The translations under genes and the position numbers were made by a program. 43,915 bases of DNA. Origin: Chloroflexota bacterium (lineage in GTDB: Bacteria > Chloroflexota > Limnocylindria > Limnocylindrales > CSP1-4). This document shows positions 16,522 to 26,700 of this stretch, piece after piece. Position 1 is the first letter of the stretch. Every line of letters starts with the position of its first letter. The notes under the pieces were generated by a model. That model saw nothing but the letters and a program-made list of their open reading frames with translations. It was not told where the DNA came from and searched no databases. The stretch lies in contig JAJYNP010000356.1 of assembly GCA_021786265.1 (NCBI GenBank), positions 1 to 43,915 on the forward strand. Reading direction: 5' to 3'.

Positions 16522-17058
16522 TCAGCCGCGCCTCGCGTGGTGCTCGGCGAAGAGATCGACCGCCTCGTGCAGGAACGCCGGGATGTCCTCCACGACGCGT
16601 CCCCATGCCAGGTTGCCGTCCCGGAATGCGGGTTCGTCCACCCACGTGGCGCCGGCGTTCACCAGGTCGTCCTTGATCCCCTTGGAGCCCGTGGCGCGGC
16701 CGCCCTCCACGATCTTCGCGGAGATCGCGACGAGCCCCCCGTGGCACACGATGGCGATCGGCTTGCCTGCGGCGTGGACGCCGGCCACCAGGTCGGTGAC
16801 CGGGGCATAGCGCCGGAGCTTGTCGGGGGCCCAGCCGCCCGGGATCACCAGGGCGTCCACGGACGCCTGGTCGATGTCGGCCGCCGCCCGCTCGACCGGC
16901 ACCTCGAGCCCGTTCTTGCCATGAACGGTTCCCGGTGCCGAGCCCACGCTCGTGACCCGGGCTCCCTCCTCGCGCAGGCGCATCACGGTGCACCAGTACT
17001 CCAGGTCTTCCACTCCTTCGGCGGCGAGCACCGCCACGCGCATGCCCTCGAGTCGCAT
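16522..17058 (-). CDS. DJ-1/PfpI family protein
   Basis: The 178-residue protein has the class I glutamine-amidotransferase-like fold: MRVAVLAAEGVEDLEY at the start, VDALVIPGGWAPDKLR in the middle, and the nucleophile elbow AIVCHGGLVAISAK with catalytic Cys and adjacent His. The length and the pattern closely match PfpI/YhbO-type proteins, annotated as proteases, glyoxalases or deglycases depending on the study, usually linked to carbonyl or oxidative stress. GGGAGG lies at the right distance before the ATG. The gene is divergent from the transporter at 17098, with a 39-bp gap. The exact reaction is not predictable from sequence. Confidence 0.9.
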   Translation of the reverse strand: MRLEGMRVAVLAAEGVEDLEYWCTVMRLREEGARVTSVGSAPGTVHGKNGLEVPVERAAADIDQASVDALVIPGGWAPDKLRRYAPVTDLVAGVHAAGKPIAIVCHGGLVAISAKIVEGGRATGSKGIKDDLVNAGATWVDEPAFRDGNLAWGRVVEDIPAFLHEAVDLFAEHHARRG

Positions 17059-17085
17059 CTGTCGCCTCCCTGCGCCTTCCTCGGC

Positions 17086-17091
17086 TACCTT
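17086..17091 (+). promoter_or_regulatory. -10 box (TACCTT), leaderless transporter start
   Basis: TACCTT lies 6 nt before the ATG at 17098 and no Shine-Dalgarno is present, matching the leaderless layout found repeatedly in this window. Confidence 0.45.
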
Positions 17092-17097
17092 GTCCCG

Positions 17098-18360
17098 ATG
17101 CTACGCGTGCTGGCAGGGACCGTCCTGTTCCTGGTCGTGGTCGCCTCGACGATCGCGCGGCCACGCGGCGTCCCGGAGTGGGCGTCAGCGCTGGGAGGTG
17201 CCGCGATCGCGATCGCACTGGGCCTGGTCGGCCCGGTGGACGCGGCGCGCGCGGTGGCCGCGGACTGGAACGTGCTGGCGTTCTTCGTGGGGATGACCGG
17301 GCTCGCAGCGGTGGCGGAGCGCAGCGGGTTCTTCGTCCGTGCCGCGGAGCTCGCGGAGCAGTTCGGCGCCGGCAGCGGGCTCCGGCTGCTCGCGGCGGTG
17401 ATCGGGCTGGGCGTGGTGATCAGCACCTTTCTCTCCAACGACGCCACCGCGCTGATCCTCACGCCGGTCGTGTACGGGCTCGTCGTCGCCCTCGGGATCG
17501 ACGCGCTCCCGTACGTCCTGGCCTGCACGTTCATCGCCGACGCCGCGTCGCTGATCCTGCCGGTCAGCAACCCCGTGAACCTCCTGGTCCTGGACGGGCT
17601 CGGACTTCCGCTGGCGCACTACCTGGCCGCCATCGAGCCGGCCGCGCTGGCGTCGGCGGGGTTGACCGCCCTGGCCCTGGTGTGGCTGTTCCGGCGGAAG
17701 GTGCCGCGCCGCGTGCCCGCGGCCGGATCCCGGGTGGAGGGCGCGCGCGTGCCCCGGGTGTGGATCGGGCTTGCCGTCATCGCGGTCGCCTTCGTCGCGG
17801 GCGGCCTGGTCGGCGCCCCGCTCGGCATCGTCGCGTGTGCCGGGTTCGCCCTGCTCCTCGCGCTGGAGTGGACGGTCGCCCGGAGGCTGCGTCCGCGGCC
17901 GTTCGAGGGCGTGAGCTGGCCGATCCTCGGTTACGTCGGCGGCATGGTCGTGCTCGTCGCCGCGCTCGAGCGGCTGGGTGTCGTGGCCCGCGTGGTCGGG
18001 ACGGTGCTCGGGTGGGCGAGCGGCTCACCGGCGCTCGCCGCGATCGCATCGAGCCTGCTCGCGGCCGCCGGCTCGAACCTCGTGAACAATGTGCCGATGA
18101 CCCTCGTCATGGTGAGCGGCATCCAGGGCGCGCACCTTGCGGGACCGGTCCGCGACGCGGCCGCGTACGGGACGATCATCGGCGCGGACCTCGGCCCGAA
18201 CCTGACCACGGTGGGGTCGCTGGCCACGGTGCTGTGGTTGCTCATCCTGCGCGAGCGGGGGCTGGAAGTGCGGGCCGGGGACTACCTGCGCGTCGGCCTC
18301 CTGATCACGCCGCCGATCCTGGTCGTCTCGACGCTGCTGATGGCAGCGATGCTCCGGTAG
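17098..18360 (+). CDS. ArsB/NhaD-type (ion transporter superfamily) membrane transporter
   Basis: The 420-residue protein has about 11-12 hydrophobic segments in two similar halves, as in the arsenite/anion permease family. TFLSNDATALILTPVV and SNLVNNVPMTLVM are the duplicated pore motifs (SNDATALxLTP and NxxNNxPM), and YGTIIGADLGPNLTTVGSLA is the second-half helix-loop conserved in ArsB. ArsB itself expels arsenite or antimonite; relatives carry Na+/H+ or organic acids. No arsR or arsC gene is adjacent, so arsenite is only one possibility. It runs with the universal stress gene 9 bp downstream. The start at 17098 is supported by the leaderless -10 box and the hydrophobic first helix. Confidence 0.88.
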   Translation: MLRVLAGTVLFLVVVASTIARPRGVPEWASALGGAAIAIALGLVGPVDAARAVAADWNVLAFFVGMTGLAAVAERSGFFVRAAELAEQFGAGSGLRLLAAVIGLGVVISTFLSNDATALILTPVVYGLVVALGIDALPYVLACTFIADAASLILPVSNPVNLLVLDGLGLPLAHYLAAIEPAALASAGLTALALVWLFRRKVPRRVPAAGSRVEGARVPRVWIGLAVIAVAFVAGGLVGAPLGIVACAGFALLLALEWTVARRLRPRPFEGVSWPILGYVGGMVVLVAALERLGVVARVVGTVLGWASGSPALAAIASSLLAAAGSNLVNNVPMTLVMVSGIQGAHLAGPVRDAAAYGTIIGADLGPNLTTVGSLATVLWLLILRERGLEVRAGDYLRVGLLITPPILVVSTLLMAAMLR

Positions 18361-18369
18361 GAGGCGAAG

Positions 18370-18831
18370 ATGGCAGATCAGACGCGTGCGCTGGTGGCCG
18401 TGGCGGGAGCCGAGGCGGAGCCGTTCTGGGAACGGGTTCGCGAACTGGTTCCGCCGGGTGCCGCGGTCGAGCTGTTCCACGTGATCGACGAGGCCCCGGT
18501 CCACGAGCTCGGGATGCAGTTCGCGCGACGGCCGGGGCATCCGCGACCGCCCGACCTGGACGCGAGGGCGCGGGAGGCCGAGGCTCGGGGATCGGACGCG
18601 ATCCTCGAGGAGGCTCGGGCCGCGATCGGCAGGCCGGCCGCGACGGCGGTCGGACGGGGCAGGCCCGAGCGCGAGATCGTGGCGCGTGCCCGGGAGACGG
18701 GGGTGTCGCTGGTGGTGGTCGGGGCGCGGCCCGGGGATCTGCACACGCCGCCGGAGCCGCACAGCCTCGGCCACGTGTCCCGGTTCGTGGTGGACCATGC
18801 GCCGTGCCCGGTGCTGCTGGTCCGGGTGTAG
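18370..18831 (+). CDS. Universal stress protein (UspA family)
   Basis: The 153-residue protein shows the family's opening strand ALVAVAGAEAEPFW, the middle helix rich in Ala and Glu, and the closing pair VSLVVVGARPGDLH and SRFVVDHAPCPVLLVRV. The second corresponds to the usual G-S-V-S...APCPVLVV end. The ATP-binding GxxGxxxxxx(S/T) loop is only partly kept (GARPGDLHTPPEPHSLGHVS), so nucleotide binding is uncertain. GGAGGCGAAG before the ATG is a good ribosome-binding site. It is probably co-transcribed with the ArsB-like transporter. Confidence 0.85.
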   Translation: MADQTRALVAVAGAEAEPFWERVRELVPPGAAVELFHVIDEAPVHELGMQFARRPGHPRPPDLDARAREAEARGSDAILEEARAAIGRPAATAVGRGRPEREIVARARETGVSLVVVGARPGDLHTPPEPHSLGHVSRFVVDHAPCPVLLVRV

Positions 18832-18842
18832 CGGGCGGGGGT

Positions 18843-18930
18843 GCGCCCCGGCCCTGCGCCCCGGCCCTGCGCCCCGGCCCTGCGCCCCGGCCCTGCGCCC
18901 CGGCCCTGCGCCCCGGCCCTGCGCCCCGGC
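18843..18930. repeat. 13-bp GC-rich tandem array
   Basis: GCGCCCCGGCCCT is repeated six times without a mismatch (18843-18920), followed by a partial seventh copy to 18930, starting 12 bp after the universal stress gene. Thirteen is not a multiple of three and there is no plausible frame, so it is a non-coding minisatellite that may vary in copy number between strains. Confidence 0.97.
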
Positions 18931-19020
18931 GGGCGCGGATGCTCTGGCCCGAGCGTGCACTCCGCCGGCTCCGCACCGGCCGCGCGCCTCGCACCCGACC
19001 GACGCGCGTCGCACCGGGGT

Positions 19021-19298
19021 GTGCACCAGGTGCACGAAAGCGACTGCCTCGGCCCAGGTCGCGCAGGTTCCGTGCTTGAGGTGCACGGAACCTGCGAGCG
19101 GGGCCGCGTTGTTGCCCGAAACGTGCGCGCCACGCACGATCTCGGCAGCCATGAGGCCGGAGACGCCTCCCGCTCTCCCGAGATGGTCGTTTTCGTGCAC
19201 CACATGCACGACGAACCGGGGATCGGCCAGGGGCCGGAGGCCGGCGTGGACGATCGCGCACGCTTGGACGGCGGGCACGACGAACCGGGGATCGGCCA
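19021..19298. repeat. Repeat-rich non-coding block: palindromes, 14-bp inverted repeat, 24-bp direct repeat
   Basis: GTGCACC-A-GGTGCAC (19021-19035) is a perfect 7-1-7 palindrome. CGCAGGTTCCGTGC (19062-19075) and its exact complement (19083-19096) form a 14-bp stem with a 7-nt loop. A GTGCA/TGCAC dyad lies at 19195-19209. A 24-bp sequence beginning GCACGACGAACCGGGGATCG occurs identically at 19206-19229 and 19275-19298. No convincing gene is seen on either strand between 18832 and 19398. The density of dyads suggests regulatory DNA or a small non-autonomous repeat element. Confidence 0.85.
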
Positions 19299-19313
19299 CC
19301 GGCAGTTCACGGG

Positions 19314-19350
19314 CCGATTTCGCCCACACCGATTTCGCCCACACCGATTT
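19314..19350 (+). repeat. 15-bp iterons just upstream of the dap promoter
   Basis: CCGATTTCGCCCACA occurs at 19314-19328 and 19329-19343, with a third partial copy (CCGATTT) at 19344-19350. The array ends 10 bp before the TTGACA -35 box, a typical activator position. The unit differs in sequence from the 15-bp repeats near uvrB but has the same period. Confidence 0.85.
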
Positions 19351-19360
19351 GACCGTGCCA

Positions 19361-19389
19361 TTGACAGGCCAGGAACAGCCCGGTATTGT
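19361..19389 (+). promoter_or_regulatory. Strong sigma-70-type promoter of the dap operon
   Basis: TTGACA (19361-19366) and TATTGT (19384-19389) are separated by exactly 17 bp, the best consensus promoter in the window. Expected initiation is near 19396, so the leader ORF at 19399 would be leaderless or nearly so, and a transcribed leader of about 225 nt would precede dapB. Confidence 0.8.
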
Positions 19390-19398
19390 CCGGCGACC

Positions 19399-19458
19399 AT
19401 GAACCACGTCGCACTGAAGGCGAAGCGCTGGCGGCCCTGCCGGGAGGCACGGGCCTAG
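19399..19458 (+). CDS. Possible 19-residue leader peptide of the dap operon
   Basis: A short frame, MNHVALKAKRWRPCREARA then TAG, begins 9 nt after the -10 box and is followed by two hairpins and an intrinsic terminator before dapB. This layout matches ribosome-mediated attenuation. Lysine codons occur at positions 7 and 9 only, so a lysine-sensing role is suggestive but weaker than in classic leaders with runs of the regulated amino acid. The codons near 19443-19448 (GGAGGC) can pair with GCCTCC at 19485-19490, which would disrupt the first leader hairpin. No homology is claimed. Confidence 0.4.
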   Translation: MNHVALKAKRWRPCREARA

Positions 19459-19480
19459 AGGCTTCGCGTCGGACGACGAA

Positions 19481-19506
19481 CGGGGCCTCCAGGCACGGAG
19501 GTCCCG
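19481..19506 (+). promoter_or_regulatory. First hairpin of the dap leader
   Basis: CGGGGCCTCC (19481-19490) and GGAGGTCCCG (19497-19506) form ten consecutive pairs, one of them G-U, with the loop AGGCAC. Its 3' arm can alternatively form GGTCC-CGAA-GGGCC (19500-19513), which overlaps the terminator's 5' arm. The leader can therefore adopt mutually exclusive folds, as an attenuator requires. Confidence 0.6.
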
Positions 19507-19510
19507 AAGG

Positions 19511-19544
19511 GCCGCGGAACCCACCAGGGTGTCCGCGGCTTTTT
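19511..19544 (+). terminator. Intrinsic terminator/attenuator upstream of dapB
   Basis: GCCGCGGA (19511-19518) pairs with TCCGCGGC (19532-19539); inside it CCC pairs with GGG around the tetraloop ACCA. Five T residues follow directly (19540-19544). It lies 79 bp before dapB, not after a gene, so its natural role is to stop transcription before the operon under some condition. AGGGTG...CCGCGG weakly recalls the T-box consensus, but the TGGNA core is absent. Confidence 0.82.
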
Positions 19545-19622
19545 CACGTCCGCCACCGGATCGGATCCCGGGAACGGATCGGACCCCCGGCCTCCAGGCC
19601 TCTCCACTGGGAGGACTGCGAG

Positions 19623-20489
19623 ATGCGAGCGATCATCCTGGGAACCGGACCGATGGGCCGGGCCCTGGCGGCCGGCCTCGAGGACCGGGGCCACGAGGTC
19701 AGGTCGGTGCTGGGGCGCCCCGGCACGACCCATCCGCCCGGCGCGTTCTCGGGCGTTGACGTCGCGTTCGAGTTCTCGCGCGGCGACGCCGTGTTGCCGA
19801 ACCTGGCCGCAGGCCTCGCGGGTGGATGCCGGCGGTTCGTAGTTGGCACGACCGGGTGGAGCGTGGCGCCCGCGGAGATCGCGGCCATCCTGATCCAGCA
19901 CGGGGCGTCGGCAGTGGTGTCGCCCAGCTTCAGTCCGGGCGTGAACCTGCTCGCTCGCCTCGTGGAGTCCGCCACGCGCATGTTTGCGGCCCTTCCCGCC
20001 TACGACCCGTACGTGGTCGAGTGGCACCGTCGGGGGAAGGCGGATCGGCCATCCGGCACGGCGTTGGAGCTGTCGCGCCGCATTCTCGCCGCGCACCCGG
20101 TCAAGCGGCAACTCGCGGACACGGGGCGGAGCGGTCCGCTCCGCCCCGACGAGCTGGAGGTCGCCAGCGTCCGAGCCGGCTCGTCGCCCGGGATGCACGT
20201 GGTCGGCTTCGATGCCGCCGGCGAGACGATCGAGCTGCGCCTCACGGCGCGCGATCGTTCTGCCTACGCGATGGGCGCGATCGCGGCGGCCGAGTGGCTG
20301 CTCGCGACGGCACGTGCGCCCGGCATCCATGCGTTCGGCGAGGTGGTCGACGCGCTGATCACCGGCGGCGCGGCCGCCACGCCCGTGCTCGACGGGCCCG
20401 CGGCTCCGGCCGCCACCGCGGCTCCGGCCGCCACCGCGGCTCCAGCCGCCACCGGCGGCATGGCCGCCACCGCGGCTCCGGCCGCCTGA
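19623..20489 (+). CDS. dapB: 4-hydroxy-tetrahydrodipicolinate reductase
   Basis: DapB reduces the DapA product with NAD(P)H in diaminopimelate/lysine synthesis. The dinucleotide-binding start is MRAIILGTGPMGRALAAGLE. The catalytic signature WHRRGKADRPSGTALEL corresponds to the family's E(I/L)HHxxKxDAPSGTA; the first His of the HH pair reads as Trp here. Length is 288 residues including an Ala/Pro/Thr-rich C-terminal repeat of ~30 residues, so the core is about the usual 260. GGGAGGAC precedes the ATG. The frame is open further upstream, across the leader, but conservation begins at 19623. It heads the dapB-dapA-dapD-decarboxylase operon behind the attenuator-like leader. Confidence 0.92.
   Translation: MRAIILGTGPMGRALAAGLEDRGHEVRSVLGRPGTTHPPGAFSGVDVAFEFSRGDAVLPNLAAGLAGGCRRFVVGTTGWSVAPAEIAAILIQHGASAVVSPSFSPGVNLLARLVESATRMFAALPAYDPYVVEWHRRGKADRPSGTALELSRRILAAHPVKRQLADTGRSGPLRPDELEVASVRAGSSPGMHVVGFDAAGETIELRLTARDRSAYAMGAIAAAEWLLATARAPGIHAFGEVVDALITGGAAATPVLDGPAAPAATAAPAATAAPAATGGMAATAAPAA
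20400..20489 (+). repeat. 18-bp tandem repeat at the dapB 3' end
   Basis: Five 18-bp units (20400-20417 and onward to 20489) based on GCGGCTCCGGCCGCCACC encode AAPAAT-type hexapeptides, the last unit containing the dapB stop codon. The fourth unit is diverged. This is a low-complexity tail added to a conserved enzyme. Confidence 0.93.
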
Positions 20490-20529
20490 TGCCCTACCCG
20501 AACTTGAGCTCTTCCCGAGGAGAAACACG

Positions 20530-21519
20530 ATGCACCCGACCCCCACTCCCGACCCGTTGACCATTGCGACGGGCGCGCCACGTCTGCACGGCGCCTTCAC
20601 CGCACTCGTCACGCCCTTCCGGGCCGACGGCTCGCTGGACGAGCCGGCACTCCGCCGCCTCCTGCAGTGGCAGGTTCTGGCCGGCATCGACGGCCTCGTG
20701 CCGTGCGGCACGACCGGGGAAGCCCCGACGCTCACCCCCGTGGAGCGGGAGCGCGTGATCGCGGCCGCCGTCGAGGTGGCCGCGTCGCGCGCCGGACGGG
20801 GACGCGTGCCGGTCGTTGCGGGCACCGGCACCAACGACACGGCGGCCACCATCCGGGCCACCCGGCGTGCGGCCGAGCTCGGCGCGGACGCCGCGCTCGT
20901 GGTCGCCCCGTACTACAATCGGCCCGACCAGCGGATGCTGGCCGCGCACTTCACCGCGGTCGCCGACGAGGGCGGGCTCCCGATCGTGGTCTACAACGTG
21001 CCGTCGCGGACCGGCGCGAACGTCGAGGCCGAGACGGCCCTGCGCCTGGCCGAGCATCCCCGGATCGTCGCGGTCAAGGAGGCGTCCGGCAACCTCGAGC
21101 AGATCGCAACGGTGATCCGCGACCGGCCCGAGGGGTTCGCGGTCATGGCCGGCGACGACGCCTGGACGCTCGCCGTCCTGGCGATGGGCGGCGACGGGGT
21201 GATCAGCGTGGCCTCGAACGAGATCCCCGGCGAGATGGCGGCGCTCTGCGCAGCCGCGCTCGATGGCGACTGGGCGCGCGCCCGCCGTCTGCATGACCAC
21301 TGGCTCCCGCTGTTCCGGGCCAATTTCCGGGGCGGCCCGAACCCGGTGCCGGTGAAGTCGGCGCTGGCGACGATGGGGCTGATCGAGGATCGGCTCCGCC
21401 TGCCGCTCCTGCCGCTCGACGAGCCGGCGCGGGGGCGGCTGGCGGCGCTCCTGCGCGACGCAGGACTTCTCGGGGGCCAGGTCACCGCCATGGCCGGCGT
21501 CGGCGAGGGGGCGGCGTGA
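20530..21519 (+). CDS. dapA: 4-hydroxy-tetrahydrodipicolinate synthase
   Basis: DapA condenses pyruvate with aspartate semialdehyde, the first committed step of the pathway. It is a 329-residue TIM-barrel aldolase with the phosphate/carboxylate loop PCGTTGEAPTL, the proton-relay Tyr155 in IVVYNVPSRTG, and the Schiff-base Lys183 in RIVAVKEASGN; APYYNRP is also family typical. The N-terminal ~18 residues (MHPTPTPDPLTIATGAP) are an extension relative to most DapA proteins. Related lyases (N-acetylneuraminate, KDG-type) share the fold, but the operon setting supports DapA. CCGAGGAGAAACACG precedes the ATG. The stop overlaps dapD (ATGA). Confidence 0.94.
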   Translation: MHPTPTPDPLTIATGAPRLHGAFTALVTPFRADGSLDEPALRRLLQWQVLAGIDGLVPCGTTGEAPTLTPVERERVIAAAVEVAASRAGRGRVPVVAGTGTNDTAATIRATRRAAELGADAALVVAPYYNRPDQRMLAAHFTAVADEGGLPIVVYNVPSRTGANVEAETALRLAEHPRIVAVKEASGNLEQIATVIRDRPEGFAVMAGDDAWTLAVLAMGGDGVISVASNEIPGEMAALCAAALDGDWARARRLHDHWLPLFRANFRGGPNPVPVKSALATMGLIEDRLRLPLLPLDEPARGRLAALLRDAGLLGGQVTAMAGVGEGAA

Positions 21520-22334
21520 TGACCGGAGCAGGGCGCGTCGAGCTGACCCCGGCCGGTTCCAGCCTGCCGGTGGCGTCCCGCCTGCTCGACGATCTGGACG
21601 CGGGGCGCCGTCGCGCGGCCTGGCCCGACCCGACCGCTCCCGACGGCTGGCGGGTGGATGCGGCGCTGCGGACGGAACTGCTCGCGCTGTTCCGGGCGCC
21701 GGACATGCGATCGTGGCAGGTCGAGGACCTGTTCGCATTCCGGGACCGGGCAACGTTGCCCACCAAGCGGCTCCTGGACGGGCCGTGGCGCGTGGTGCCG
21801 GGCGGGACGAGCGTGCGGGCCGGCGCGTACCTGGGCGAGGGCGTCGTGATCATGCCGCCGGCGTTCGTCAACGTCGGGGCGTGGGTCGGCGACGGCACGA
21901 TGATCGACTCGCACGTGCTCGTCGGCTCGTGCGCGCAGATCGGGTTCCGCGTCCATCTCGCCGCCGGGGCGCAGATCGGTGGGGTCCTGGAGCCGCCGAA
22001 CGCACGGCCCGTGATCGTGGAGGATGAGGCGTTCGTCGGCGCCCAATGCGGACTCTTCGACGGCGTGCTCGTCGGACGCGGCGCGGTGCTGGCGGCAGGC
22101 GTGATCCTGACCGGCACGAGCCGGCTCTACGACCTGGTCGAGGAGCGGGTGCTGGAGGGGACGCCGGACGTGCCGCTGTCGGTCCCGCCCGGCGCGGTCG
22201 TGGTGCCGTCGACCCGGGCCGCCCGGGGCGAGTTCGCGGCCGGCCACGGGCTCGCCCTCCAGTGCGCGGCGATCGTGAAGATGCGCGATGCCTCCACGTC
22301 GGCGCGGACCGCGCTCGAGGAGGCGCTCCGGTGA
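21516..22334 (+). CDS. dapD: Tetrahydrodipicolinate N-succinyltransferase
   Basis: DapD acylates tetrahydrodipicolinate with succinyl-CoA, which commits this organism to the succinylase branch. The 272-residue protein has the family's N-terminal helical domain (WRVDAALRTELLALFR) and a left-handed beta-helix: VVIMPPAFVNVGAWVGDG, SHVLVGSCAQIGFRVHLAAG, then QIGGVLEP, ending in a C-terminal cap. MIDSHVLVGSCAQIG is diagnostic of DapD. It overlaps dapA by 4 bp and the next gene by 4 bp (GTGA), indicating coupled translation. No dapC or dapE gene is present in the window; they must be elsewhere or replaced. Confidence 0.93.
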   Translation: MMTGAGRVELTPAGSSLPVASRLLDDLDAGRRRAAWPDPTAPDGWRVDAALRTELLALFRAPDMRSWQVEDLFAFRDRATLPTKRLLDGPWRVVPGGTSVRAGAYLGEGVVIMPPAFVNVGAWVGDGTMIDSHVLVGSCAQIGFRVHLAAGAQIGGVLEPPNARPVIVEDEAFVGAQCGLFDGVLVGRGAVLAAGVILTGTSRLYDLVEERVLEGTPDVPLSVPPGAVVVPSTRAARGEFAAGHGLALQCAAIVKMRDASTSARTALEEALR

Positions 22335-23662
22335 GGGGAGGGGACGCGGCGGACGCATCGACAGGGACGGACAGCCTGAGGACCGCCCGGGACGAGCCGC
22401 CCCCGACCAGTGGCCACGCGCGAGCACGCGACGAGATCTGGCGCGACGGCCTCCTGGCGGGCCTCGAACCTCGCGAGCTCGCGCGGACGTTCGGCACGCC
22501 GCTCTACGTGTACGACCTCGACGCGCTGGCCGGCCGGGCGGCGCACCTGCGGGCGGCACTTCCCGGCCAGGTCGACGTGGCGTACGCGGTCAAGGCGAAC
22601 CCGTCGCTCGCGGTGATCGCGCGCCTCGCGTCGACCGGCCTCGGGGCCGACGTGTCGTCGGAGGGCGAGCTGGAGGCGGCGTTGCGCGCCGGGGTGGCGC
22701 CGCGGACCATCGTCGTCACGGGCCCCGGCAAGAGCGATCGTTTCCTGCGACGCGCGGTCGAGTCCGGCGTGCGCGCGATCGCCGTCGACTCGCCCGGCGA
22801 GGTGGCGCGCGTCGAGGCGGCCGCGAAAGCCGCCGGCGAGCGAGCGCGCCTCCTCTTCCGCCTCGCCCACCCGGGACAGTCGTTCGGCGTGTCGTGGGAC
22901 GACGCCCTCGCCGCGGCTGGCCATGCCGTCGCGTCGGAGCACCTCGAACCGATCGGCGTCCACGCGTTCGCAGTCTCGGCCGTCCTCGACCACGAGGTCC
23001 TTGGCAGCCACATTGCCCGCACCATCGACGCCGGCCGGCGGCTCGCGCGGGCGGCCGGCTTCTCGCTCCGGATCGTCGACGCGGGCGGAGGGCTGGGGAT
23101 CCCGTATCGCGACGGCGAGGCGCCTCTCGACCTGGCCACGTTCGCCGCCGCCGTCGGGCGCCTTGCCGCTGGCTGGAACGACGACCCGGACCTGCGCGAG
23201 ACACGCATCCTGATCGAGCCGGGACGCCACCTCTCCGGTCCGACCGGTGCCTACCTCGCGAGCGTGATCGACGTGAAGCGGCTCGACGGCCGGCATGTCG
23301 CGGTGCTCGACGGTGGGATCAACCACCTCCTCGCGCCGGCACTGGTCGGGCGGTGGCACAGGCTGCGGCTGGTCGGATCGTCTCCGCTCGACCTGCGCCC
23401 GCTTGTCCCGGTGACGATCACCGGGCCCCTCTGCACGAGCCTGGACGTCATCGGCCGGCCCGAGGCGCTCCCCGAGCCACGCCCGGGCGACCTGGTCGCC
23501 GTCCTGGACGCCGGCGCGTACGGCTTCACGCAGTCGATGCCGTGGTTCCTGTCGCACCCGGGCCCCGCCGAGGTCGCGGTGTCTGGCGGGCGGGCCGCGC
23601 TGATCCGGCCGCGGCTCGACCCCGCGGAGTTGCTGAACGGCCAGCGGCTCCCGGCCTGGTAG
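22331..23662 (+). CDS. PLP-dependent decarboxylase, LysA-like (diaminopimelate decarboxylase or relative)
   Basis: The 443-residue protein is a fold-III PLP enzyme: Lys88 in VAYAVKANPSLAVI binds PLP, and VDAGGGLGIPY and LIEPGRHLSGPTGAY are the phosphate- and substrate-site motifs. Last gene of a dap operon, it would be expected to be LysA. However, the LysA signature C-E-S reads C-T-S here (TGPLCTSLDVIG, Cys368), and the GxHxHxGSQ loop reads IGVHAFAVSAVLD. Both changes resemble LysA relatives that act on carrier-bound or other amino-acid substrates (BtrK/VinO-like and exosortase-linked groups). Either a divergent LysA or a paralogue; operon position favours LysA. GTG 22331 overlaps dapD. The N-terminal ~35 residues are variable. 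Confidence 0.78.
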   Translation: MRGGDAADASTGTDSLRTARDEPPPTSGHARARDEIWRDGLLAGLEPRELARTFGTPLYVYDLDALAGRAAHLRAALPGQVDVAYAVKANPSLAVIARLASTGLGADVSSEGELEAALRAGVAPRTIVVTGPGKSDRFLRRAVESGVRAIAVDSPGEVARVEAAAKAAGERARLLFRLAHPGQSFGVSWDDALAAAGHAVASEHLEPIGVHAFAVSAVLDHEVLGSHIARTIDAGRRLARAAGFSLRIVDAGGGLGIPYRDGEAPLDLATFAAAVGRLAAGWNDDPDLRETRILIEPGRHLSGPTGAYLASVIDVKRLDGRHVAVLDGGINHLLAPALVGRWHRLRLVGSSPLDLRPLVPVTITGPLCTSLDVIGRPEALPEPRPGDLVAVLDAGAYGFTQSMPWFLSHPGPAEVAVSGGRAALIRPRLDPAELLNGQRLPAW

Positions 23663-23711
23663 CGGTGCGGGCGCGCGGGCCGATCGGCCGCCGCGCGACA
23701 GCGTCGATCTC

Positions 23712-23723
23712 GTACATCTGTTC
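23712..23723 (+). promoter_or_regulatory. Candidate LexA (SOS) box of uvrA
   Basis: GTAC-ATCT-GTTC matches GAAC-N4-GTTC at 7 of 8 positions and shares the longer string CATCTGTTCTAA with the uvrB promoter. A -10 box TACACT lies at 23742-23747, 9 nt before the uvrA ATG, so the box again covers the -35 region. Confidence 0.6.
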
Positions 23724-23741
23724 TAATCTGGCGCGACCGGC

Positions 23742-23747
23742 TACACT
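23742..23747 (+). promoter_or_regulatory. -10 box (TACACT) of uvrA
   Basis: TACACT lies 9 nt before the uvrA ATG, with GGGAGG just downstream of it. It has the same box-to-promoter geometry as uvrB. Confidence 0.5.
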
Positions 23748-23756
23748 TGGGAGGTC

Positions 23757-26700
23757 ATGCCGCAGGATCTCCTGGTGGTTCGCGGTGCCCGCGAGCACAA
23801 CCTCAAGAACATCACGGTCGAGCTGCCGCGCGACCGGCTGGTGGTGATCACCGGTCTCTCCGGGAGCGGAAAGTCCAGCCTCGCGTTCGACACGATCTAT
23901 GCCGAGGGTCAGCGCCGGTACGTCGAGAGCCTGTCGGCGTACGCGCGCCAGTTCCTGGGGCAGATGGAGAAGCCGGACGTCGACCAGATCGACGGCCTGA
24001 GCCCGGCCATCTCGATCGACCAGAAGGGCGCCAGTCGCAACCCGCGGTCCACCGTGGGGACCGTCACCGAGATCTACGACTACCTGCGGCTCCTGTTCGC
24101 CCGCGCCGGCCACCCCCACTGCCCGGTCTGCGGCCGCGAGATCGCGCGCCAGAGCGTGCCCCAGATCGTGGACCGGATCCAGGAGCTGCCGGACGGCACC
24201 CGCCTGCTGGTGCTCGGGCCGCTCGTGAAGGACCGCAAGACGGAGGGTGACCGGGTCTTCGAGGCGGCGCGCAAGCAGGGCTTCGTGCGGGTCCGGGTCG
24301 ATGGTGAACTGCTCGACCTCGACGAGGCGCGCTCGCTCGACAAGTACAAGCGCCACACCATCGAGGTCGTGGTCGATCGCGTGATCGTCCGCCACGCGGA
24401 CGAGGATGGCGTCCCGTACACGGTCGAGCGCCCCAACCCCGACCTGCCCCGCCTGGCCGACTCGGTCGAGACCGCCCTCCGCCTGGGCGAGGGCGTCATG
24501 GTCGTCGCGCCGGCCGACCCGGGGGCCTTCGAGGAGCAGCGCTACAGCGAGCGCTACAGCTGCCCGTTCGACGGCACGATCCTGGAGGAGCTGGAGCCCC
24601 GCAGCTTCTCGTTCAACTCGCCACACGGCGCCTGCCCGACCTGCACTGGCCTCGGCGTCCGCCTGGAGATCGACCCGGCGCGGCTGATCCCCAACCGCGA
24701 CCTGTCGCTGCGCGAGGGCGCGCTCCAGCCGTGGGCACGCATGCCCATGGAGAACTCCTGGCAGCTCAAGATCATCGAGGCGATCGCGGAGCGGCGTGGG
24801 TTCCGCACCGACGCGCCCGTTCGCGAGCTGCCGGAGGAAGCGCTCCACCACCTGCTCTACGCGGAACGCGGCGAGCGCGTGGTGGTGCGCTACCAGCACG
24901 ACCGCGGCGAGAACTCGTACGAGGCCACGTTCGAGGGGCTCGTCCCCAACTTGGAGCGCCGGTACCGCGAGACCGAATCGGAGTACGTCAAGTCCGAGAT
25001 CGAGCGGTACATGGTGGAGCGGCCGTGCCTGGCGTGCGGCGGCAAGCGGCTTCGCCCCGAGGCGCTCAGCGTGACCATCGACGGGCGGACCATCGCGGAC
25101 GTCTCCTCGCTCTCCGTGACCGACGCGCTGGACTGGGCGACCGACCTGCCCGCGCGACTCTCCGAGCGCGAGGCGACCATCGGCCGGCAGGTGCTCAAGG
25201 AGATCCGCGCCCGGCTCGGCTTCCTGGTCGACGTGGGCCTGGACTACCTGACGATCGACCGGACCAGCCAGACCCTCTCGGGTGGGGAGGCCCAGCGGAT
25301 TCGCCTGGCCACGCAGATCGGGTCGAGCCTGATGGGCGTCCTGTACATCCTCGACGAGCCCTCCATCGGGCTCCACCAGCGCGACAACGCGAAGCTCATC
25401 GCCACGCTGACCCGGCTGCGCGACCTGGGCAACACGCTGATCGTGGTCGAGCACGACGAGGAGACGATCCGCACGGCCGACTGGGTGGTGGACGTGGGGC
25501 CGGGGGCGGGCGAGCACGGCGGCGAGGTGGTGGCGGCCGGCCCGCTCGAGGCGATCATCGAGGAGCCGCGGTCGCTCACCGGCGCGTACCTGCGGGGCGA
25601 GCGGTTCGTCCCCGTGCCGGCCCGCCGGCGCCCTGGGAACGGACGGTCCCTGGTCGTGCGGGGTGCGCGGGCCCACAACCTGCGCGGGATCGACGTCGCA
25701 TTCCCGCTCGGCACGTTCATCTCCGTGACCGGCGTGTCGGGCTCGGGGAAGAGCACGCTGATCGCGGAGGTGCTGTACCGCGGCCTCGCCAAGGCCCTGT
25801 ACGGCTCGCGCGACGAGCCCGGCGAGCACGACCGGATCGATGGCGTCGACGCGATCGACAAGGTGATCGAGATCGACCAGAGCCCGATCGGGCGGACGCC
25901 CCGCTCGAATCCGGCGACGTACACCGGCGTCTTCGGACCCATCCGGGAGTTGTTCGCGGGTGTCCCCGAGGCGCGGCTGCGCGGCTACCGGGCGGGGCGC
26001 TTCAGCTTCAACGTGAAGGGCGGCCGCTGCGAGAACTGCAAGGGCGACGGGATCATCAAGATCGAGATGCAGTTCCTGCCCGACGTCTACGTGCAGTGCG
26101 AGGTGTGCAAGGGCAAGCGCTACAACCGCGAAGCGCTGGAGATCCACTACAAGGGCAGGTCCATCTCGGACGTGCTCGAGATGACGGTCGAGGAAGCGCT
26201 CGAGCTGTTCTCCGCGGTGCCGGCGATCCGGAACAAGCTGCAGACACTCAACGACGTGGGGCTGGGCTACATCCACCTGGGGCAGCCCGCGACGACGCTG
26301 TCGGGCGGCGAGGCGCAGCGCGTGAAGCTGGCCACCGAGCTGTCACGCCGGGCGACCGGGCGCACCGTCTACGTGCTCGACGAGCCCACGACGGGCCTTC
26401 ACTTCGCGGACGTCGAGAAGCTCCTGCAGGTGCTGCACCGGCTGGTCGACGCGGGCAACACGGTGATCGTGATCGAGCACAACCTCGACGTGATCAAGAC
26501 GGCCGACTGGATCGTGGACCTGGGGCCGGAGGGCGGCGCGCGGGGCGGCGCCGTGGTGGCGGAGGGGAGCCCGGAGCAGGTCGCCGAGGTGGCGGCGTCC
26601 GCCACCGGTGAGTACCTGGGTCGGGTCCTGCGCGGCGAGCCGCTGGTGCCGCTGACCGACGTGACGTTCGCCGAGGCCGCGGGCCGTGCCGGCACGACCC

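Follow-up and report, generated by a model that had tools for sequence, protein, structure and literature searches.

A probable lysine-codon attenuator ahead of the dap/lys operon in Chloroflexota, and sister leaders with methionine or cysteine codons

The dap/lys operon of a Chloroflexota bacterium, found in a contig of 43,915 nucleotides (the whole stretch analysed, hereafter the window), is preceded by a leader that is very probably a ribosome-mediated transcription attenuator. Sequence comparison and model folds show its parts, their conservation in relatives, and two mutually exclusive pairings of one strand inside the leader open reading frame (ORF). The first-pass annotation of this DNA had inferred ribosome-mediated attenuation of lysine synthesis. 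This is supported and is the best reading; neither a significant Rfam hit to a known lysine element nor a loss of the hairpins and leader ORF in close relatives was found.

All features described here are on the forward strand. The promoter (19361-19389) has TTGACA at 19361-19366, a spacer of 17 nt, and TATTGT at 19384-19389. As annotated earlier, it is present, and it is the sole sigma-70-like site found in 17000-24000, where 0.2 would be expected by shuffling. The ATG lies 9 nt downstream of the -10 hexamer. If transcription starts where the sequence predicts, the mRNA is leaderless or close to it. The leader ORF (19399-19458) encodes MNHVALKAKRWRPCREARA in 19 codons, from ATG at 19399 to TAG at 19456-19458, and has Lys at codons 7 and 9, again as annotated. 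When the Trp codon (19429-19431) is numbered 0, these are codon -4 (19417-19419), the proposed sensor codon, and codon -2 (19423-19425). The Lys codons sit just before strand A, GCGGCCCU (19431-19438), which lies within the Trp-Arg-Pro codons and has B as its partner in the termination fold and E in the antitermination fold.

The first hairpin, A:B (19407-19478), is formed in and just after the ORF, and its upper stem joins 19433-19441 with 19446-19455. It is followed by the second hairpin, C:D (19481-19506), and the intrinsic terminator, E:F (19507-19544; stem 19507-19543 in the fold, TTTTT at 19540-19544). Strand E, AGGGCCGC (19508-19515), is the 5' arm of the terminator and the other partner of A. 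The minimum-energy fold of 19399-19545 is -91.8 kcal/mol (z -6.4), and none of 200 shuffles is as stable. The second hairpin and the five-T terminator ahead of dapB, both claimed before, are within this fold. The leader terminator is not among the matches of a simple terminator-pattern scan of 17000-24000. Repeats were seen by eye upstream of the promoter: a 23-base direct repeat in two copies (cacgacgaaccggggatcggcca, in 19205-19300), stretches with GTGCAC (19020-19220), and a tandem 13-base GC-rich unit (ggccctgcgcccc, 18840-18935) between a small gene at 18370 and the leader.

The gene order after the leader is dapB-dapA-dapD-lysA, and the lysine/diaminopimelate operon of the earlier annotation is borne out. 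dapA (20530-21519; TIGR00674, 306.7 bits) and dapD (21516-22334; NF008808, 252.9 bits) are over the NCBIfam cut-offs. dapB (19623-20489; TIGR00036, 105.5 bits) and lysA match the right models below the cut-offs, which are 122 and 297.9, respectively. lysA is contained in an open frame at 22046-23662 (TIGR01048, 274.6 bits over residues 139-531), and its true start falls inside this frame. The 3' end of the dapB frame (20405-20486) encodes an Ala/Pro/Thr stretch from GC-rich repeats.

Conservation was examined at dapB loci of relatives. A protein search gave 1093 dapB relatives, of which 120 were listed, and 34 of those 120 were aligned with the window protein (alignment A1). A1 was used to scan a one-genome-per-species collection, and the best 80 of 142 confirmed loci were kept. 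Of these 80, 63 are labelled Chloroflexota (Chloroflexi; one 'Anaerolinea sp.' and two 'Candidatus Limnocylindrales'), and the leader is found at 62 of the 63. At the remaining locus (L047) the contig starts inside dapB and there is no upstream DNA. The peptide regular expression found 49 of the 62 leaders; the other 13 were found by eye and with motifs typed after reading the sequences. At seven of the 17 loci with other labels (L060 and L064-L069), the same expression found no leader. Because it is present at 62 other loci, the leader is more than a chance arrangement. One row (L070) is a letter-for-letter duplicate of another in the leader stretch, and alignment A2 holds 62 leaders, i.e., 61 loci and the window. 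Two loci (L031 and L046) are both labelled MGR_bin130, each with dapB and its own Lys leader.

The leader ORF, the Lys codons, and the hairpins are all kept in these relatives. In A2, codon -4 is Lys in 58 of 62 leaders (AAG 54, AAA 4) and codon -2 in 61 of 62 (AAG 59, AAA 2), i.e., 113 AAG and 6 AAA among 119 Lys codons. Codons -3, -5, -7, and -8 are variable, and all 62 leaders have two or three Lys codons between -8 and -1. An in-frame start codon was found by the search rule in every leader, and its distance to Trp takes six values (10, 11, 13, 14, 15, and 16 codons), which are in frame by the same rule. In 47 of 62 leaders, 8-10 nt separate the end of a NANNNT hexamer from the chosen start (exactly 9 in 40), and in 60 the distance is 4-13 nt. 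The hexamer is missing in two leaders, L046 and L017; the contig of L017 has just 9 nt upstream of the start. Such spacing leaves no room for a Shine-Dalgarno site. From these sequences we infer a leaderless or near-leaderless start across the leaders. One leader (L010) has no T-tailed terminator within its aligned stretch.

The first-pass annotation had listed two alternative pairings, GGAGGC (19443-19448) with GCCTCC (19485-19490) and GGTCC (19500-19504) with GGGCC (19509-19513). Both exist, but the stronger pairing of 19431-19438 with 19508-19515 had been missed, and the best-supported antiterminator is instead this one, in which strand A, within the ORF, pairs with strand E of the terminator. 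All eight in-register A:E pairs are found in 48 leaders, seven in 13, and two in one, the divergent leader L036 (R1 E-value 0.04; model R1 is described below). When A is shuffled, seven or eight of the eight pairs occur in 2.0% of trials, versus 61 of the 62 real leaders, although the leaders are related and 2.0% is not a probability. The best upstream 8-nt complement of E is A itself in 61 of 62 leaders. The RNAalifold consensus of the Lys leaders includes A:E unprompted, and that of 38 mixed Lys, Met, and Cys leaders consists of A:E alone.

Pairs were counted in A2 for both folds. In the antitermination fold 80.3% of cells are paired (outer helix 88.9%, inner part 74.5%), versus 35-50% after a shift of the partners by 1-3 columns. 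In the termination fold (upper A:B, C:D, and E:F) the value is 86.2%, versus 42-52% when slid; by helix over the 62 leaders, it is 92.7% in the A:B upper stem, 79.0% in C:D, and 86.3% in E:F. Pairs changed on both sides number 13 in the termination fold, which 3 of 500 shuffles reach, and 11 in the antitermination fold, which 39 of 500 reach; in the latter, the number of further pair types is no higher than in shuffles (272 of 500). Compensatory changes in A:E are few because A:E is so constant: most of its pairs are nearly invariant, with one two-sided change from C-G to U-A (column 63), and the eighth pair is U-A in 26 leaders, U-G in 21, C-G in 4, and unpaired in 11. In a Lys leader outside A2 (L128), GCGGTCCTG replaces A and CAGGACCGC is found downstream, by eye a matching change.

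Folding was then modelled with a stalled ribosome covering 13 nt from the first base of the A-site codon and with the transcript ending just past E. Before F is present, A:E pairing exceeds 0.5 in 62 of 62 leaders with codon -4 in the A site, in 53 with codon -3, and in none with codon -2 or the stop codon. With each leader's own first Lys codon in the A site (-6 in 17, -4 in 42, and -3 in 3), it exceeds 0.5 in all 62. In silico, therefore, an antiterminator exclusive with the terminator is formed at a regulatory-codon stall before F. Codon -2 is conserved as Lys although a stall there yields A:E in no leader. With no ribosome 30 of 62 leaders favour A:E, and untranslated transcripts would therefore have no clear fate. 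Taken alone, the folding measure is weak. With A shuffled, 236 of 310 folds still pass 0.5 (mean 0.59 versus 0.95 for real A), and with the stretch between A and E shuffled the count is 280 of 310; the shuffles pass because the rest of the fold holds both ends together. Two probably false matches (L171 and L243) pass as well. Other antiterminators were considered. D:E, the GGTCC/GGGCC pairing, was rejected, since E:D exceeds 0.5 in none of the 62 leaders when the ribosome waits at codon -4 and in only 4 when it waits at codon -2. A his-like chain of six strands was given up in favour of A:E after the ribosome-stall folding. In the stalled fold of the window, the bases of GGAGGC and GCCTCC (B:C) take other partners.

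Once F is included, equilibrium folding favours the terminator in all 62 leaders with the ribosome at the stop codon and, even in the stalled state, in 57 of them. Any switch must therefore be kinetic, with A:E forming before F exists. Classical attenuators are likewise based on timing, and their antiterminator pairs before the second arm of the terminator exists. We infer that the leader is translated, that ribosomes stall in it, and that pairing order gives a response to lysine. The near-leaderless ORF would be translated while emerging. When Lys-tRNA is ample, the ribosome would reach the stop codon and cover the A:B region; C:D would form, E would be left free, E:F would form, and transcription would end before dapB. 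When Lys-tRNA is scarce, the ribosome would wait at the first Lys codon with its leading edge just before A. A:E would then pair ahead of the synthesis of F, the terminator would come too late, and dapB-dapA-dapD-lysA would be transcribed.

The class carrying the leader is apparently Limnocylindria. At E<=0.01, the Lys model R1 has matches in 81 of the 177 genomes searched from the class, with 66 matches in 65 genomes below 1e-9. A draw of 400 genomes from the phylum gave 25 with a match at E<=0.001, every one of them on the list for the class. Note that in these large genome searches few candidates were scored per genome and filters were stricter. R1 matched nothing in the other 96 genomes of the class; a search of 20 of these for the dapB seen here gave no hit in 19 and, in one, a partial hit with an internal stop. 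Thus, in the 20 searched, absence of the leader goes with absence of this dapB.

As a correction to the first-pass annotation, sister leaders with Met and Cys codons exist. R1, which is made from Lys leaders only, finds Met leaders in the same genomes as weaker matches (5e-7 to 8e-3), many of which read ...M-x-M-R-[WGR]-R-P-R-R... The codons swapped are -4 and -2. The gene downstream of these many leaders resembles O-acetylhomoserine sulfhydrylase (metY-like); it is over the TIGR01326 cut-off in L091 and L094, and the other metY-like genes were judged by eye from a shared protein start. Three Cys leaders (L166, L172, and L175) read ...C-x-C-P-R-R-P-R-R-R-R before a stop. In L166 the next gene is cysE-like (TIGR01172, 158 bits, below 210.65; NF041874, 150.7 bits, just over its 150), and it is followed by a fragment that resembles cysK, with 133-139 bits across 104 residues, under the cut-off.

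A total of 56 sister places were collected (50 fetched and 6 from the R1 search), of which 43 are distinct and testable; those outside the 43 are 2 duplicates and 11 without a core or E by regular expression, two of these from a misplaced core. The 56 include two Lys leaders (L128 and L131) and three places that are probably false or misread (L129, L171, and L173). With codon -4 in the A site, A:E exceeds 0.5 in 36 of 36 Met leaders, 3 of 3 Cys leaders, and 4 of 4 others. A mixed model, R2, has matches in all 24 genomes searched, and 20 places were fetched. Among these 20, reading by eye picked out leaders of the Met and Cys types and recognised none for His, Trp, or branched-chain amino acids. 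A:E exceeds 0.5 in 12 of 16 testable R2 places, and those that fail are two OsmC-linked and two cysK-linked places, the latter with E probably misplaced by the regular expression. L243, mentioned above, looks spurious. By eye, downstream genes include metY-like, cysE-like, cysK-like, OsmC-like, carbonic-anhydrase-like, sulfite/nitrite-reductase-like, rhodanese-like, threonine-synthase-like, and transporter genes; the OsmC and carbonic anhydrase assignments are weak profile matches. When 10 genomes were searched with a pattern for further sensor types, 9 of them had matches, 16 in total, and the reversed control pattern gave 10 in 4 genomes (7 in G002). Since the reversed pattern matches often, the pattern alone is weak.

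Contig G034:C253 has a Met-codon leader (L155, 3655-3789) before a frame weakly matching carbonic anhydrase, and a Lys leader match about 1 kb away (2566-2704), with a dapB-like frame following in L155; as read from the sequence, these are two putative attenuators of the family adjoining. L237, L239, and L240 have ...MMCMRRRPRR ahead of OsmC-like frames, and the match between strand A and the terminator arm is lost; they may be a variant form of the switch.

Judged by sequence, the Lys, Met, and Cys leader types are probably of common origin. A stretch common to many of them, CGCTGGCGGCCC, is more than A:E needs. The similarity could also come from shared pairing logic rather than from common origin. 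On balance, we lean towards a single modular family of leaderless codon-reading attenuators in one class of Chloroflexota, in which one scaffold of common origin was duplicated ahead of many operons and the codons at two fixed positions were swapped. With the same modest preference, we regard the family as having been retargeted, using Lys for dap/lys, Met for metY, and Cys for cysE/cysK. This two-codon retargeting would then be, somewhat more probably than otherwise, the codon-based counterpart of a specifier swap in T-boxes.

The lysine riboswitch (RF00168) and the T-box (RF00230) control lysine and other amino-acid genes, partly via terminators. It is very unlikely that the leader is such a metabolite- or tRNA-binding RNA with a conserved core that can be read as an ORF by chance. 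The Trp-Arg-Pro stretch is kept at the nucleotide level, as this explanation would have it: codon 1 after Trp is CGG in 61 of 62 leaders, and at codon 2 CCC is replaced by TCC in 10 leaders, with the pairing kept and the residue changed from Pro to Ser. However, an Rfam search of the whole window gave no family reaching its cut-off, in line with the first-pass annotation, which had seen neither the lysine-riboswitch core nor a full T-box sequence. At E<=10, the five matches in 19200-19800 include neither RF00168 nor RF00230; a Yfr1 match inside dapB (19707-19757), the best of the low-scoring ones, is below its cut-off and was taken as chance. In ten relatives searched, the lysine riboswitch is found in none. 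The T-box model matches elsewhere in nine of the ten genomes, all under the Rfam cut-off. Moreover, the Met and Cys sensor triplets fit their downstream genes, which ligand binding does not explain. The nine genomes with sub-cut-off T-box matches (G001, G002, G003, G004, G008, G009, G010, G013, and G050; E-values down to 1e-13) possibly hold a divergent T-box group.

The same core bears on a nascent-peptide arrest, in which the peptide WRPCREAR rather than the supply of Lys-tRNA would stall the ribosome. We consider this slightly less probable still: the residues after the Lys codons are strongly conserved, but changes tend to keep the pairing over the residue, as in the Pro to Ser change above and at residue 3 (Cys 46, Ser 9, Arg 3, others 4), and the corresponding residues are mostly RPRR in Met leaders and RPRRRR in Cys leaders. 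The terminator and hairpins might instead give constitutive partial termination or affect mRNA stability, with incidental Lys codons. The equilibrium preference for the terminator, in stalled and stop-codon states alike (57 and 62 of 62), fits this; the Lys codons at two positions amid variable neighbours (58 and 61 of 62), and their replacement by Met or Cys codons ahead of genes for sulfur amino acids, do not, and we rate it as improbable as a ligand-binding RNA. Attenuation by a ribosome reading Lys codons is the preferred reading.

If true, a lysine attenuator in Chloroflexota would extend the known amino acids and phyla of such control. A modular family would, moreover, show how a regulator that reads codons acquires a new target when two of them are changed. 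It would also allow regulons for sulfur and the aspartate family to be predicted in these bacteria, which are represented here mainly by metagenome assemblies, and could serve as a designable amino-acid sensor.

Passages of a 2010 survey (PMC2965389) give leader-peptide systems as known in Proteobacteria and Actinobacteria only, to which Bacilli were then added. For Actinobacteria, PMC1262725 states in part that no conserved RNA structures were found for lysine or methionine operons, and names riboswitches as the RNA control of these genes in other species. No lysine leader-peptide attenuator of lysine genes was recognised in searches of the open-licence PMC literature. The nearest lysine precedent found is in an excerpt of PMC10117765, where a leader is suggested before an aspartate dehydrogenase gene of Sinorhizobium meliloti; it contains six codons for Thr and three for Lys. 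The same excerpt describes S. meliloti trpL, which like the leader here has a leaderless leader ORF in a transcription attenuator; it is for tryptophan and from another phylum. Mycobacterial polycysteine leaderless short ORFs (Canestrari 2020, cited in PMC13236596) share the leaderless ORF and the Cys codons at cysteine genes. Their control is translation attenuation according to the relevant passage of PMC13236596, and the mycobacterial cys leaders lack conserved terminator hairpins in the account of PMC1262725, whereas the leader here has a T-tailed terminator. As in the E. coli and Salmonella attenuators outlined in PMC1183508, a leader ORF with regulatory codons is combined with an antiterminator exclusive with an intrinsic terminator, and as in his of that outline an extra hairpin precedes the terminator. 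Unlike those systems, it has a near-leaderless ORF, lysine codons, a long-range A:E antiterminator, and codon-swapped sister leaders on the same scaffold in a class of Chloroflexota. What is new is chiefly the existence of sister leaders with swapped codons, and besides this the use of lysine codons, the near-leaderless ORF, and the group of bacteria concerned.
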